Shown here: piece after piece, positions 1,048-56,579 of the stretch
How positions within the stretch are numbered: position 1 is the first letter of the stretch
Layout: every line of letters begins with the position of its first letter
Position numbers and translations under genes: made by a program
Notes under the pieces: generated by a model
Database searches by the model: none
What the model was told of the DNA's origin: nothing
The model's input: only the letters and a program-made list of their open reading frames with translations
From: a virus
DNA length: 64,000 nt
Direction: 5' to 3' (one strand)
IMG/VR virus record: IMGVR_UViG_3300018026_000007
Location: 1 to 64,000 of that record

Positions 1048-1092
1048 ATTCTCTCAAATCAGCGAAAACAATGCAATAGTACTTTAGTACCG
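1048..1092 (-). promoter_or_regulatory. AGTAC operator with weak divergent minus promoter
   Basis: TGCAATAGTACTTTAGTAC (1072-1090) repeats the operator seen at 852 and 8694. On the minus strand TTGCAT (1071-1076) is 17 bases from GAGAAT (1048-1053), a poor -10. The operator also sits 10 bases upstream of the ssrA -35, so it may control tmRNA expression instead. Confidence 0.55.
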
Positions 1093-1099
1093 AAAGTTC

Positions 1100-1128
1100 T
1101 TGACAGCGATTCAAGACTTTGTTATCCT
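1100..1128 (+). promoter_or_regulatory. ssrA promoter
   Basis: TTGACA (1100-1105), 17 bases, TATCCT (1123-1128) form a near-consensus sigma-70 promoter directly before the permuted tmRNA gene. The sequence AAGACTTTGTTATCCTAAGT inside it also matches the GACTTT-N6-box motif found before virion genes, so the RNA may be made both early and late. Confidence 0.75.
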
Positions 1129-1134
1129 AAGTGA

Positions 1135-1484
1135 GTCGCGTTTAAGCGCGGCATGGTGGAGGCGGGGCTAAGGCCCCAGCCCTTTACGCACGTCAATACT
1201 TGGTGATTGCTCAGATGGACGGGAGTTCAACTCTCCCCGAGTCCACCAAAGTGCAGATATCTCCCTGCCGATAGTGGGGAGGGGCCCGTGTATCTGCACT
1301 TTGTTGGGCTCGACGGGTTTCGACATTTGAGAACAGTGGCCAGGGGCTCGTGCCGTCCTGACAACGACGTAAAAATAGATCAAACCATAAACGCCAAGCG
1401 AAAGCTGGCTCAAGTGATTGCGTTTCCAGGTGTCTTTGCGGTGGCTTCGGCCCGACCGCAAGCCCTAGCGGCGTAGTTGCGGGG
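1135..1484 (+). ncRNA. ssrA: Circularly permuted (two-piece) tmRNA
   Basis: The tRNA-like half that normally ends tmRNA comes first here. A perfect T-arm (GGGAG-TTCAACT-CTCCC, 1221-1237) is followed by CGAGTCC-A-CCA (1238-1248). After a 57-base intervening segment that folds into a hairpin (AAGTGCAGATA 1249-1259 with TATCTGCACTT 1291-1301), GGGCTCG (1306-1312) pairs with CGAGTCC over all seven positions, including the G3-U70 wobble that marks alanine-accepting RNAs. A GGGTTTCGACA stretch like the tmRNA 5' region and the AAAAATAGAT resume context (1371-1380) follow. The tag frame runs from about CAA 1381 to TAG 1474 (31 codons) and ends in ALAA, the usual proteolysis signal. Processing should give an acceptor piece and a coding piece. 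The exact 5' end is inferred from the promoter. The tag is long compared with typical ones of about 10-25 residues. Confidence 0.9.
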
Positions 1485-1515
1485 AGGGGCCCCAAAAGGG
1501 GCCCTTTCATTTTTA
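1485..1515 (+). terminator. Intrinsic terminator of ssrA
   Basis: AGGGGCCCC, an AAAA loop and GGGGCCCT form a perfect GC-rich stem, followed by a T-rich run (TTTCATTTTT). Confidence 0.9.
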
Positions 1516-1525
1516 GGAGAGCATC

Positions 1526-1756
1526 ATGACCAGCCATAGGTTTGAAGGATTCACACCGATAGACAGCGGACACCTGGACGGCGCAAAGTACGACCCAATC
1601 GGAAAGAAGCTCACCGTCCGCTTCAAGAACGGGTATACCTACGATGTGCATGGAGTCTCGGCGCAGGACCATCAGGACTTCATGGAAGCACCCAGCCAAG
1701 GCGAGCACTTCCACCAGGTCATCAAGAACAACTACCGCGTCGAACGAGTGAAGTAG
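1526..1756 (+). CDS. KTSC-domain protein (76 aa)
   Basis: The whole protein matches the small KTSC domain pattern: a hydrophobic strand with YDPIGKKLTVRFKNG, then YDVHGVSAQDHQDFMEAPSQGEHFHQVI and a basic tail. The biochemical role of this domain is not established; it is common in phages and bacteria as a stand-alone protein. AGGAG lies 8 bases upstream of ATG 1526, just after the tmRNA terminator, so read-through or an unseen promoter must drive it. It meets the minus-strand gene tail to tail at 1756/1757. Confidence 0.8.
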   Translation: MTSHRFEGFTPIDSGHLDGAKYDPIGKKLTVRFKNGYTYDVHGVSAQDHQDFMEAPSQGEHFHQVIKNNYRVERVK

Positions 1757-2001: not shown

Positions 2002-3042
2002 CTAGTGTTGTTCCAGACTTTGAATGATTTCGTCCAACTCTTGCTTTCCGTCATTCGTAAGATAATACCGATGGCGGTTGCGGAATTCCTTCAGTCGTTC
2101 GATGAGTGGTTGGCTGTTGGGGATAAACCAATGCTTGACGTGCCGAAGCATTGCCTTGACTTTTTCAGGCACCAGAACCCACTTCATGCCCGCCGCCGAC
2201 GCACGTTGAATCTCTTCCTGAGTTGAGACGGGAACCGCCCCAAAGCCGTGGCGGCTCACGAAGTAGTTAAAATGAGCATCAGCGAAACCAGGAGTGGCGT
2301 TAACATGAGATTCAACATACTCAACATCGGGGGCTTCGGACTCCAGCAATTCCGATAAGCGTGCAGAGTGACCAGCGGCGGTCCAGAGCTTGGATGTTTC
2401 CCAGGCCAGGTCAAATCCATCCACCATGCCTCGGTCGCGGTCAAGTTTGATGACATCGGGGCGAAAAGAATAGCCGCATTTGAAACCCTTCACAGTCGTG
2501 ACGTAGAGCCCGCCGGCATAGATGCGACCCGCTTCGCCTTCTTCCTCAAGAATGGTGTTGTCTTCGTCGGGATGGGGGCGAATGTTGGACAGGATAAAGT
2601 CGTGGTCTTCGGGGCGAACCCCCGAAATACGGAAGAACGCGCCCTCGACGGTTTCGGCATCCGCTTCGAAAGAGTCGGTATAGATGTTGAGCACGGTCGC
2701 ATTGAAATTCGAATCGTGCTCTAACACGGGAGCCCAGCATTCTCTACCTGTGCGAATGACGACATCGTGCTTCAGGCGCGTCAGAACCAACAGCGCGAGT
2801 TTATAGCCCTCGCCGAACTTGCCGCGCTGATTCTTATTGTCGCGCTTCGATGTCGTGCCTAGAACCAAAGTGCTAGGGTCGAGCGGTCGTCCTTTGGATG
2901 AGAGGATGAGTGACTGTTCGTTTTCGTAGTAAGCGATAACGGCGTCACCCGCGTCGAGCGCGTTCTGGTAAATCTCGCGGACGGCTTCCCAGAGTCCCCA
3001 GTGCTCGCAGTAGCTCGGTGACAGCGGCAGAGTGAATTTCAT
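2002..3042 (-). CDS. GHKL-type (HSP90/histidine-kinase-like) ATPase
   Basis: The N-terminal third carries the Bergerat ATP-binding fold. The N-box is REIYQNALDAGD (residues 22-33, with E23 and N27), and a glycine-rich lid GKFGEGYKLALL starts near residue 74. No histidine-kinase dimerisation or receiver domain is seen, and the C-terminal half (to 346 aa) is not recognised. MutL, gyrase B, HSP90 and MORC-type proteins share this fold, so the true activity is open; stand-alone GHKL ATPases occur in large phages. AGGAG lies 5 bases upstream of ATG 3042. The gene follows the recombinase in the same transcription unit, which is compatible with a role in DNA transactions. Confidence 0.8.
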   Translation of the reverse strand: MKFTLPLSPSYCEHWGLWEAVREIYQNALDAGDAVIAYYENEQSLILSSKGRPLDPSTLVLGTTSKRDNKNQRGKFGEGYKLALLVLTRLKHDVVIRTGRECWAPVLEHDSNFNATVLNIYTDSFEADAETVEGAFFRISGVRPEDHDFILSNIRPHPDEDNTILEEEGEAGRIYAGGLYVTTVKGFKCGYSFRPDVIKLDRDRGMVDGFDLAWETSKLWTAAGHSARLSELLESEAPDVEYVESHVNATPGFADAHFNYFVSRHGFGAVPVSTQEEIQRASAAGMKWVLVPEKVKAMLRHVKHWFIPNSQPLIERLKEFRNRHRYYLTNDGKQELDEIIQSLEQH

Positions 3043-3049
3043 ATGGCTC

Positions 3050-3595
3050 CTATGCTAATTGCAGACTATCCATGGCTTCTTGCGCCAGCATACCATCGTT
3101 CTCTTGCAGGTAAACGAAAGCGGACGAGGGCGAGCGGTGCGCCAGGAACTGAGAAACCGCGCCGATGCGCTTCGTCACATCGAAGACGACCATCGCCGCA
3201 CTGTGTCGGAAGACATGCGAGTGAGCATAGCTGCTGTGAATGCCAGCGGCTTCGGCATATTCCTTGAGCTTCAGGTTAAAGTACTGACGCGACAGACCGC
3301 CGAAGATACGGGACTGGCCTTTCGTGGCAGCCAGGGCAACCAGGGGCGTCATGTCGAACGCTGGGTCCGCATCGATATGCAGCGAGTGAGTGACGACGTT
3401 CCCACGCTTCGCGGCGCGAATCATGATGACCCACTTGCCCTCACGCTCGAAGATATCCTCACCGCGTACGTTCAGCACCTGAGAGATTCGCGCACCAGTA
3501 AAAAAGCCGAGCAGCATGGCGAGATGATGAATCTTGTTCGCGGCATGCGCCGTTCGGAAGAGCTTGGCTAGGTCCTGCTTCGCTAGGTATTGCAT
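3050..3595 (-). CDS. Minimal tyrosine recombinase
   Basis: The conserved residues are in order: R36 in GARISQVL, K63, H127 and R130 in HVFRH, H153 in LAHRS, and Y162 as the likely nucleophile. At 181 residues it is only the catalytic domain; the usual N-terminal core-binding domain is missing. This resembles small XerD-like phage recombinases and may resolve genome multimers or invert DNA rather than integrate. GGGAGG lies 6 bases before ATG 3595, and the operator-type promoter at 3620-3656 is directly upstream. No attachment site is recognisable nearby. Confidence 0.85.
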   Translation of the reverse strand: MQYLAKQDLAKLFRTAHAANKIHHLAMLLGFFTGARISQVLNVRGEDIFEREGKWVIMIRAAKRGNVVTHSLHIDADPAFDMTPLVALAATKGQSRIFGGLSRQYFNLKLKEYAEAAGIHSSYAHSHVFRHSAAMVVFDVTKRIGAVSQFLAHRSPSSAFVYLQENDGMLAQEAMDSLQLA

Positions 3596-7122: not shown

Positions 7123-7270
7123 CCTCCCCGCCCCTCGAAGACTCGGGACGGGGATTCCTACTGCTCTCAAGTGCACGATTGCACAAGAGTAGCTTCGGTG
7201 GGTTCCTGACACGACGCCCTTACCTCAGGCGAAGATGACGAGCAGGCTAAAAAGGCTAATCCAGCCTCTT
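7118..7270 (-). ncRNA. Candidate omega/right-end guide RNA
   Basis: In characterised TnpB systems the guide RNA covers the 3' end of tnpB and the right element end. This interval has the stem-loop at 7126-7152 just inside the right end, so the guide would be the phage sequence just left of about 7118. Ends and expression are inferred from family knowledge. Confidence 0.4.
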
Positions 7271-8381
7271 TGATGTTGAATGCGCCAACAAAGTCCGCAT
7301 TACCAGACCAGCCGCACTTGACACAAACAAACTTCGCTTGCGTCTTGCGGTTATCCTTGGACGTATGCTTGCACTCGGGACACTTGCGGCTGGTGTTTTG
7401 TGGTGGTACGGCAATTAAGATTCCACCGTTCCACAACATCTTGTATTCCAGTTGACGCCGCAATTCGAAGGGGCTTGCGTCCAGGATTGAGCGGTTGAGC
7501 CCTGATTTCTGGGCAACCTTCTTTCCCGGCTTGTCCTTCGTGCCCTTGCTTGACTTGGACATATTGCTAACTTGCAGGTCTTCGACGAAAACAACGGCGT
7601 GGTTTTTGCTGATGTCTGCCGAGACCTTATGAACGAAATCTTTTCTAATGTTGGCAATCTTGCTGTGCAGTTTGGTGATGCGGGCTTTCGCCTTCTTCCA
7701 GTTTTGGCTAAACTTTTTCTTCTTTGCCAGACGGCGCTGTAGCTTTGCCAACTTTGGCAAGAACTGTTTGAGCGGCTGGCATTGGTCTACGACTAGACCG
7801 TCCGATGCTGTTATGAAGTTGACGACTCCCCAATCCAAGCCGATAGACGACTTGGACGGGTGTTCTGGTACCTTGATTTCTTGTAGTGTGCTGACGCTGA
7901 CGAACCACTTTCCGCAGGACTCGCTAACAGTGGCGTTGCGAATCTGTCCGAGTACATCACGACTGTTGCGATAGCGCACCCAGCCAATCTTCGGCAAACG
8001 AATGCGGCTGTTGACTTGGTCTAGCGTGATGCACTTTGGGTCTGACTCACGATACGAAGTACGCTGTCCCTTCTTGTGGAACTTCGGGAAGTCCGCACGT
8101 TTCTTGAAAAAGTTTTGGTATGCCCTGTCCATATCTACCAAGGATTGCTGCAAGGCGTGCGACGGTGTATCTGAAAGCCAAGGCGTCTCTGACTTCCACA
8201 ATGTAAGCAACTTGTCGAGTTGAAACCGCGTATGCGAACGCTTCGTCAGGTCGTACATTTCCTTCTGGAGTGCCAACGCTTTGTTGTAGATATAGCGCAC
8301 ACTTCCAGCGAAGCGGCGCATCAGCCGCTGCTGTTCGCCGTTAGGCATCAACTCGAATTTGAATGCTTGACGCTTTTCCAT
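7167..8381 (-). CDS. tnpB: TnpB RNA-guided endonuclease
   Basis: The 404-residue protein has an N-terminal helix-turn-helix/WED region, then the split RuvC nuclease: D183 in GLDWGV, E267 in VFVEDLQV and D363 in NADFVGAFNI. The zinc finger (CPEC at 334-337, CVKC at 353-356) lies between the last two. All catalytic residues are present, so it should be active. ATG 8381 lies 6 bases after a perfect TATAAT, so the mRNA is probably leaderless; the longer frame from 8567 runs through phage genes and the promoter. Its role is element maintenance by cleaving empty sites; TnpB genes in phages can also act as homing-like nucleases. Confidence 0.92.
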   Translation of the reverse strand: MEKRQAFKFELMPNGEQQRLMRRFAGSVRYIYNKALALQKEMYDLTKRSHTRFQLDKLLTLWKSETPWLSDTPSHALQQSLVDMDRAYQNFFKKRADFPKFHKKGQRTSYRESDPKCITLDQVNSRIRLPKIGWVRYRNSRDVLGQIRNATVSESCGKWFVSVSTLQEIKVPEHPSKSSIGLDWGVVNFITASDGLVVDQCQPLKQFLPKLAKLQRRLAKKKKFSQNWKKAKARITKLHSKIANIRKDFVHKVSADISKNHAVVFVEDLQVSNMSKSSKGTKDKPGKKVAQKSGLNRSILDASPFELRRQLEYKMLWNGGILIAVPPQNTSRKCPECKHTSKDNRKTQAKFVCVKCGWSGNADFVGAFNIKEAGLAFLACSSSSPEVRASCQEPTEATLVQSCT

Positions 8382-8387
8382 TCTTGT

Positions 8388-8416
8388 ATTATACTCTGGT
8401 CTATGGCTAATGTCAA
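8388..8416 (-). promoter_or_regulatory. Consensus tnpB promoter
   Basis: Minus strand TTGACA (8411-8416), 17 bases, TATAAT (8388-8393): both boxes match the sigma-70 consensus exactly. ATG 8381 follows after 6 bases. The -35 may include phage flank (TTTGACA), so the insertion may have completed the promoter. Confidence 0.85.
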
Positions 8417-8437
8417 ACTTGTGTTCGTAGATCGACA

Positions 8438-8647
8438 TTATCGTCCCGCCTTGACGCGGACAGTGTTGGACTCGCTGGCGATTCCTGGTGTGCCGTGCGG
8501 GCCGCCCATGTTCAGAACCCAGCCATGGGGTCCGCGCATCACCGCGCGCCCAGTCTTCGCTTTCCATTCCTGCCCATTGCGTCCGATGCCATTGGGAACC
8601 AGGATGGTCACTTTGTCGCCGTGCTTGATGGATTCGACTAAGGTCAT
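8438..8647 (-). CDS. Hypothetical protein (69 aa)
   Basis: Beta-rich, glycine-rich small protein (HGDKVTILVPNG, KAKTGRAVMRGPHGWVLN, GGPHGTP) resembling a KOW/SH3-like barrel of the sort found in many phage genes of unknown role. The start is ATG 8647 because the shared leader CATGGAGGCAACGCAAATG places GGAGG 8 bases upstream. First gene of the minus operon that the TnpB element interrupts. Confidence 0.7.
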   Translation of the reverse strand: MTLVESIKHGDKVTILVPNGIGRNGQEWKAKTGRAVMRGPHGWVLNMGGPHGTPGIASESNTVRVKAGR

Positions 8648-20509: not shown

Positions 20510-20778
20510 GTCAACGCATGAAGCAAACCTGCGACGGCTGCGGGTCATCGAAAGAATGGGAGTTGGTAGGTGCCGATGCCGACCCGAATATTCTGGCCGA
20601 AATGCAATGCTGGTTTGTCGTCGCTCGTAAGATCGTGAACGATAGAGGCGAGATGGTGGCTTTGAGTGCCGATGCGTGTTCCGTGGCTTGCGTTTCAACG
20701 ATTGCGGAAAAGCTCATGAAGCTGCCAGAGTCCGAACCTGCGGACAAGATCGACCTGGCGTCTTTGCGCATCAACTAA
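20491..20778 (+). CDS. Hypothetical zinc-binding protein (95 aa)
   Basis: CDGCGSSKEWEL at the start and C-x3-C later (ACSVAC) suggest one metal site. Overlaps the previous gene by 19 bases with AGGAG just before ATG 20491. Confidence 0.6.
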   Translation: MSKQVVSQRMKQTCDGCGSSKEWELVGADADPNILAEMQCWFVVARKIVNDRGEMVALSADACSVACVSTIAEKLMKLPESEPADKIDLASLRIN

Positions 20779-20801
20779 CTTTTCGGTCGGAGCGAACGGA
20801 A

Positions 20802-22400
20802 ATGAGCAAACTGATTCGACATGGCGCGGACGCTCGTGAAGCTCTCTTGCGCGGCGTTGATTTTCTCGCGGATGCGGTGAAGATCACCGAAGGTCCCCGA
20901 GGGCGAAATTGCATTCTGGGGCAGCGGGCCCTGGGTCAATCCCCGAAGGTCACGCGCGATGGTGTGACCGTCTCCAATTACGCCGACCCATCTGACCCGA
21001 CCGAACAACTCGGTGCCGACCTTATCCGCGAAGCCGCACAGAAGACCGATAACGCGGTAGGCGACGGCACCACGGCATCTATCGTCCTGGCTCAGTCCAT
21101 GATTCACGCGGGATTCGACCTGATCGCAAAAGGAGCGAACCCGATGGCGATGGAGCGCGGCATCCACAAAGCCACCGATGCAGTAATCAAACGACTCTGC
21201 GACATGTCCGTTCCCGTCGCAGGGGTAAAGGTCTTCCAGGTCGCCACGGTCTCGGCTCATGGGGACACGGAAATCGGTCGTCTTGTTGCAGACGCGGTCT
21301 ACAAGGCAGGCAAAGAGGGGGTAGTCACCGCCGAGCCGTCATCGACATCGGAAACCTACGTGGAAACCGTCGTCGGGCTCGAACTTGAAAAATCCAATCT
21401 CATCTCGACGGCATTCATCACGCACCCCGAAGACATGAAGGCGGAACTGCACGATTGTCGCATTCTCCTGTGGGAAGGGGTGATTGCCACGGCGAAATCC
21501 GTTGTGCCGCTGTTAAAGCAGGTGAACGACGCGGGCGGTGCGAGTCCTCTTTTGATTATTGCAGGCGGATACGAAGCGGAAGCTCTCGCCTGTATCATCA
21601 AGAACAAGACCGCCCTCGCGCTGCCACTTATCGCTGTCCGCATGGAAGCATACGGCGAACGGCGAAAGGAATTGATGCGCGATATCGCGGCGTTGACGGG
21701 CGGTAAGGCATATACCGAGGACCTGGGTCTGAAGATCGAGAGCATCAAGCTCGCCGAACTCGGCCAGGCACGCAAGGTCATCACGAATATGTCCAAGACT
21801 CAAATCATCGAAGGCCGAGGCAACCAGACTGAATTGATGGGGCGTTTGAACCTCATCACCACGGCTCTGGAAACTGCCGCGCCGATGGAAAAAACGATTC
21901 TGCGCAAGCGATACGCCGCGCTGGTTGGTGGCATCACGGTCATCAAAGTTGGCGGGGTCACCGTGACCGAGATGGAAGAAAAGAAAGACCGTGTCGTGGA
22001 TGCGATGTCTGCAGCAAAGGCAGCAGTTGAGTCGGGCATTGTTTCTGGCGGCGGAATTGCACTACTGCATGCGTCGGGGGTTATCGCGGCGTTGAAACTT
22101 CCCGCCGAAGAGCGCGCAGGGCTTGAAGTTGTTTACACCGCCTGCCGCGCCGTTGCACGCCAGATTGCCGAGAACGCGGGAATCGATGCCGATGGTTTGA
22201 TGAATCAACTGATGGCGACTCCCGATCTTGGCTATAATGCGCTGACAGGTGAATTCGAAAATCTCATCGACTCAGGCATCATCGACCCCTTGGCTGTTGT
22301 CATCGAGTCCCTGAAAAACGCAGCCGCAGTTTCCTGCAGTATCCTGACCATGGGCGCAACCGTGGCAGAGAAAGTGACGGAGAGAATCGCCAATGTCTAA
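20802..22400 (+). CDS. groEL: Phage chaperonin GroEL
   Basis: At 532 residues this is a full-length group I chaperonin subunit. ATP-site motifs are present: KITEGPRGRNC, PKVTRDGVTVSNY, VGDGTTASIV and the late KKDRVVDAMSAAKAAVESGIVSGGG. The apical domain is more divergent than bacterial GroEL, and the C-terminal GGM tail is absent. It would assemble a folding chamber with the GroES encoded right after (8-bp overlap). Its position just before the morphogenesis genes suggests it folds capsid or tail proteins. ATG 20802 starts the family-like sequence; the frame from 20676 runs through the previous gene. Confidence 0.95.
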   Translation: MSKLIRHGADAREALLRGVDFLADAVKITEGPRGRNCILGQRALGQSPKVTRDGVTVSNYADPSDPTEQLGADLIREAAQKTDNAVGDGTTASIVLAQSMIHAGFDLIAKGANPMAMERGIHKATDAVIKRLCDMSVPVAGVKVFQVATVSAHGDTEIGRLVADAVYKAGKEGVVTAEPSSTSETYVETVVGLELEKSNLISTAFITHPEDMKAELHDCRILLWEGVIATAKSVVPLLKQVNDAGGASPLLIIAGGYEAEALACIIKNKTALALPLIAVRMEAYGERRKELMRDIAALTGGKAYTEDLGLKIESIKLAELGQARKVITNMSKTQIIEGRGNQTELMGRLNLITTALETAAPMEKTILRKRYAALVGGITVIKVGGVTVTEMEEKKDRVVDAMSAAKAAVESGIVSGGGIALLHASGVIAALKLPAEERAGLEVVYTACRAVARQIAENAGIDADGLMNQLMATPDLGYNALTGEFENLIDSGIIDPLAVVIESLKNAAAVSCSILTMGATVAEKVTERIANV

Positions 22401-56550: not shown

Positions 56551-56579
56551 TTGACAATGCAATGGTACTTTTGTACTAT
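56551..56579 (+). promoter_or_regulatory. Operator-bearing leaderless promoter
   Basis: TTGACA (56551-56556), 17 bases, TACTAT (56574-56579). TGCAATGGTACTTTTGTACT lies between the boxes, so a bound protein would block polymerase. GTG 56586 begins 6 bases after the -10. Confidence 0.8.

Follow-up and report, generated by a model that had tools for sequence, protein, structure and literature searches.

The window analysed here, a stretch of 64,000 nucleotides from a virus record of 74,896 bp, carries genes for a terminase large subunit, a portal protein, a major head protein, a DNA polymerase, UvsX and a primase, which bears out the description of the locus in the first-pass annotation as phage-encoded. 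The features at the locus (Table 1) very probably make up a circularly permuted (two-piece) tmRNA gene that is functional and of a broadly betaproteobacterial type, followed by a gene for a KTSC-domain protein. The form of the gene, its structure, the tag frame, the selection on the tag and the conservation in relatives were all computed here.

Table 1 Features of the tmRNA locus, with positions in the window.
Feature	Position	Strand	Basis
Repeated box AATGCAATAGTACTTTAGTACCG, just 5' of the tmRNA promoter	1070-1092	+	Repeat scan
Sigma70-type promoter TTGACA-17-TATCCT, TG ahead of the -10 box	1100-1128	+	Sequence
P2 helices, 5' strands, and anticodon-like stem, 5' strand (first, acceptor piece)	1188-1217	+	RF04321 alignment, covariation
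T-stem and loop, acceptor 3' strand CGAGTCC, encoded ACCA end	1221-1248	+	ARAGORN, RF04321, covariation
Intervening segment, long hairpin continuing the acceptor stem	1249-1305	+	Fold
Acceptor 5' strand GGGCTCG (1306-1312), D-region, partner strand of the anticodon-like stem	1306-1331	+	ARAGORN, RF04321, covariation
P2 helices, 3' strands, then hairpin CGTC/GACG	1340-1369	+	RF04321 alignment, covariation
Tag reading frame AKRKLAQVIAFPGVFAVASARPQALAA and stop codon TAG	1393-1476	+	ARAGORN; protein-level conservation in relatives
Intrinsic terminator, 3' hairpin (stem 1483-1508) with T-run	1483-1514	+	Sequence, RF04321 alignment
KTSC-domain protein gene, 76 aa, 3' of the tmRNA	1526-1756	+	Pfam PF13619, linkage, fold match

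ARAGORN reported a permuted tmRNA (tmRNA*) at 1156-1567 with a tag ending in ALAA, and the Rfam family tmRNA_permuted (RF04321) matched positions 1188-1476 end to end with 71.1 bits (cut-off 47), corresponding to E = 1.1e-12 in a scan of 6 kb against all families and E = 3.1e-15 in the whole virus record. Of the lineage models, beta_tmRNA (RF01850) fitted best, yet with 51.5 bits the window stays below the cut-off of 84 and is not a member by score; four relatives reached 29-71 bits with this model. The acceptor 3' strand together with the ACCA end (1238-1248) lies upstream of the acceptor 5' strand, all seven acceptor pairs form, including the alanine identity pair G3-U70 (1308-1242), and the joining segment folds into a hairpin that extends the acceptor stem. 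The first-pass annotation had read the order of the strands, the seven pairs and the hairpin correctly from the letters. By analogy with known two-piece tmRNAs, this hairpin is expected to be absent from the mature RNA. The fold of the 375-nt precursor has a z-score of -6.1.

The promoter and the terminator that had been proposed for the gene were likewise recovered. Similar TTGACA promoters are located 5' of the tmRNA in four of five relatives, and the terminator hairpin also corresponds to the 3' hairpin conserved in the beta_tmRNA model. The looser core of the upstream box, GCAATNGTACTTTNGTAC, has eight matches in the window with up to three mismatches (three of them exact) against 0.25 expected, among them 850-872, 1070-1092 and 56556-56578, and is likely, judging by this repetition, to represent a phage operator or regulatory site. 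Positions 905-1055, which contain a perfect palindrome of 18 bp, gcgacttggccaagtcgc, might form a structured RNA, although one that is only mildly stable (z -2.46). Elsewhere in the window we noted an array of 15-bp tandem repeats at 1-365, whose minus strand can be read as a pentapeptide-repeat protein running off the window start, a transposase (phrog_506; 7167-8567, minus strand) that is possibly part of an insertion sequence, and a GroEL chaperonin (phrog_5725; 20676-22400, plus strand) with about 39-41% identity to its best matches in phage records.

Conservation of the RNA and its place among known tmRNAs

Relatives were collected from IMG/VR via the terminase or via the neighbouring protein encoded at 2002-3042 and then searched with RF04321. 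For those found via the terminase the identity is 50-73%, one near-identical fragment aside. Four large relatives carry a permuted tmRNA above the RF04321 cut-off and a fifth was found through the KTSC gene alone, with scores of the relatives between 57 and 81 bits. In an alignment of the window with four related viral contigs, i.e. five sequences, 95.3% of the pair cells hold a standard pair and both partners have changed in 17 of 34 pairs, which none of 500 shuffles equalled, whereas sliding the alignment by one to three columns left only 25-47% paired. The acceptor 5' strand occurs as GGGCTCG, GGGCCTG or GGGTCGG, each with a matching partner strand, and G3-U70 is invariant in all five aligned sequences. 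Since the compensatory pairing exceeds that of all shuffles, we conclude that the gene is maintained as an RNA; the covariance model and the pairing kept in related phages thus uphold the initial reading of a phage-encoded permuted tmRNA. At the DNA level, a similarity search with 1100-1530 against cultured phages returned nothing meaningful, and no viral contig contained an exact 25-mer taken from the window. The core motif of the clade was found in three viral contigs only and in none of 84,980 species genomes of bacteria and archaea.

The first-pass annotation had considered the permuted form unfamiliar in phages. It was, however, already described in 2022, when 53 two-piece genes were counted among 133 distinct, mostly aquatic phage tmRNAs, including a two-piece tmRNA in phage Melnitz (PMC9004378), and a curated tmRNA database holds 79 bacteriophage sequences (PMC11915505). 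Our pattern scan of IMG/VR returned at least 120 viral stretches, and about 110 among the 120 matches listed have a permuted ARAGORN call. These matches are impure, with at least one (L025, IMGVR_UViG_3300028800_002381) being a one-piece tmRNA at 657-1019 behind a tRNA-like stretch; a distant KTSC gene follows about 2 kb further on. The tmRNA of the window therefore adds to an already known class of phage two-piece tmRNAs. Mycobacteriophage tmRNA genes (Bxz1, Wildcat and others) have the standard one-piece form and are not permuted, unlike that of the window. They are phage-encoded, as in the window (PMC4131195). Melnitz, a phage of OM43, and other aquatic phages share with the window a complete circularly permuted ssrA gene (PMC9004378), but the Melnitz tmRNA has an alphaproteobacterial affinity and a predicted glutamine riboswitch, whereas in the window beta_tmRNA is the best lineage model and no riboswitch was found. 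With the betaproteobacterial permuted tmRNA (RF01850/RF04321) the window has in common the order of the parts, the tRNA-like domain, the PK1 region, the CAUAAAC-GCC resume site and the 3' hairpin. RF04321 itself was built from alphaproteobacterial, betaproteobacterial and cyanobacterial genes (PMC11915505). In contrast to the 10-aa tag of the ANDERFALAA type in betaproteobacteria, the window encodes a tag of 27 aa with KLAQVxxF instead, and it scores below the RF01850 cut-off.

The tag peptide and the neighbouring KTSC gene

The tag frame runs from the resume codon GCC at 1393 to the stop codon TAG at 1474-1476 and comprises 27 sense codons, not the 31 counted originally, while the ALAA end was correctly predicted and is given by the ARAGORN translation. 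The tag had also been called unusually long, which holds with respect to the commonest tmRNA tag length of 10 (PMC11915505) but less so among viral permuted tags, since 16 of 63 distinct ones among the matches listed have at least 20 aa. Its length is thus uncommon, but not unique. The corresponding number for bacteria is 4 of 31, in a set that includes doubtful ARAGORN tags, so that a greater length of viral permuted tags than of bacterial ones is suggestive only. Other long viral permuted tags occur among the matches listed (e.g. ANADTFDFSAMSFTGNTVSGKSKVALAA). A second family of long tags has the pattern TF[DE]F...[SN]FTGN.V before the degron (L012, L015, L018, L027, L042, L070, L076, L100, L102 and L121), and the tags of L029 and L043 have another stretch, TFKFMQV, in common.

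All six tags of the clade are 24-27 aa long and end in A[LM]AA, with KLAQVxxF near the start and an unconstrained linker in between. The tags of four relatives are VKQTLAKVIEFVVPVRSRELAMAA, AMPKKLAQVVMFAQRPAAFVPQALAA, AKNKLAQVVMFAKRAVVVPARQYAMAA and AKTKMAKVLAFPAMRTVAPARQFALAA; the sixth member, L282, has a tmRNA of 76.5 bits (RF04321) and the tag AKTKLAQVVMFASRTNVASARRLAMAA. Because the scan that led to L282 used the KTSC protein without information on the tmRNA, this tag confirms the pattern independently. In the N-terminal module, K[LM]A[QK]V..F, second codon positions are nearly invariant and nearly all third positions variable; the A[LM]AA codons follow the same pattern, and the middle of the tag is variable at nearly every site. 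We tested for selection on the six sequences by shuffling bases within codon columns. The amino acid identity of the N- and C-terminal modules together is 0.728 compared to 0.434 after permutation (p < 1/3000), and the middle of the tag is not clearly different from the permutation (p 0.08). This conservation at the codon level suggests that the peptide is probably translated and that its N-terminal part matters as a peptide. What may be new here is the clade-specific long tag in two parts that is conserved at the protein level. We also considered QVVMF in the tag as a sliding-clamp-binding motif and dropped this reading, because QVIAF and KVIEF of other tags do not fit.

The KTSC protein matches PF13619 with 56.1 bits (cut-off 25), and its fold matches the KTSC structures 7x8c and 4rgi in Foldseek (TM 0.81-0.86). 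Each of the six clade members has this gene on the 3' side of the tmRNA; four of them keep it about 50-60 bp from the tag, and the other two 0.5-0.8 kb away. For jumbo phages, it has been proposed that KTSC proteins assist in ribosome rescue (PMC7824862), and a KTSC domain also ends the HerA helicase of a SIR2/HerA anti-phage complex. The linkage may nevertheless reflect simple shared descent, since an integrase gene and another gene are also conserved nearby, since a terminase relative of 99.7 kb (G011) has KTSC and no permuted tmRNA match, which we count against the explanation favored below, and since the other viral loci listed showed no KTSC-tmRNA link beyond the clade, L025 apart. In view of G011, the tmRNA may not be essential throughout the group.

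Possible role of the phage tmRNA and alternative explanations

Most likely, the phage supplies an ordinary trans-translation RNA that works with the SmpB and the alanyl-tRNA synthetase of the host, on the assumption that it is compatible with these host factors. From the features of the gene we infer its expression, processing, charging, SmpB use, tagging and degradation as well as a role of the N-terminal module, along the following lines. A single transcript would start from the gene's own promoter, and excision of the intervening hairpin would yield two pieces, one for the acceptor and one for the coding part, which base pairing would keep joined. The host enzyme would charge the RNA with alanine through G3-U70, and host SmpB, which we propose because no SmpB gene was found in the phage or in seven relatives, would be loaded on it. 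During infection, the RNA might then enter ribosomes stalled on broken mRNAs, the 27-residue tag would be translated and its ALAA end would mark the product for ClpXP-type proteolysis. The KLAQVxxF module could act as a second signal at the protein level, read most likely by a protease adaptor or by some other partner. It is possible, although we regard it as doubtful, that the C-terminal degron and a KLAQVxxF module recruiting a specific partner, such as a protease adaptor of phage or host or another target, form a two-signal tag that operates with the linked KTSC protein as a dedicated RNA-binding accessory factor in a phage-specific ribosome-rescue module.

The tag lacks the AND... start typical of bacterial tags, which counts against an ordinary tmRNA and would suit an RNA that mainly competes with or inhibits the host tmRNA, by titrating SmpB or by a tag unreadable to host adaptors, rather than rescuing ribosomes. 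A tagless mycobacteriophage tmRNA-like RNA indeed inhibits endogenous tmRNA (PMC11915505, PMC4131195). A pure inhibitor would, however, need neither an intact tag frame under selection at the protein level nor an A[LM]AA end, so that we consider this role unlikely. Still less probable is that the tmRNA is a by-product of integration, i.e. a host copy captured by a temperate phage with an attachment site in ssrA and without a role in infection. A tyrosine-recombinase gene at 3050-3595 (Pfam Phage_integrase), near the tmRNA in five of six clade members, points in this direction, as does the common use of tmRNA genes as integration sites (PMC11915505), but attachment remnants are usually partial, whereas here the whole gene is present, along with a promoter and a terminator of its own. 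Moreover, the phage clade has a tag family that differs from the sampled bacterial tags, tag and helices are under selection, and no integrated copy was seen in the species genomes searched for the clade core motif. The score below the RF01850 cut-off could finally hint at a similarity due to chance or at the decayed remains of a tmRNA, which is next to inconceivable in view of the RF04321 E-value of 3e-15, the promoter and terminator and the open, selected tag frame; the permuted tmRNAs in relatives, the covariation and the L282 tag refute it. A trans-translation RNA supplied by the phage thus accounts best for the locus. That a clade conserves the tag peptide itself in two modules, beyond the RNA, offers a concrete handle on the purpose of phage tmRNAs and raises the question of what a phage gains from a 27-residue label of its own.

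A permuted tmRNA in the cultured phage Tunturi_3

The nearest cultured relative by terminase, with only 23.5% identity, is the Tunturiibacter phage Tunturi_3, which infects an acidobacterium. Its UvsX is 57% identical to that of the window and its portal protein is also related, but overall it is a distant relative. Like the window, Tunturi_3 has a permuted tmRNA above the RF04321 cut-off (63.3 bits; PP885686.1, 88172-88396, minus strand; locus L286, 1501-1725) with a long tag, VNKIDRSVVAVVPASRKVRVAQFATMLAA, of 29 aa when its start is set by the homologous resume site; unlike in the window, no KTSC gene was found and KLAQVxxF is not clearly present. This tmRNA is unannotated in the PP885686 record, was missed by ARAGORN and is without mention in the paper on the phage (PMC11924767). 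Since the three main clades with permuted tmRNA genes exclude Acidobacteriota (PMC11915505), the form of the Tunturi_3 tmRNA may differ from that of its host. With the KTSC linkage in the clade and a permuted tmRNA in a cultivable phage, the question of what the phage gains is open to experiment. Tunturi_3 also encodes a release-factor-like protein with an RF-1 domain (gp125).
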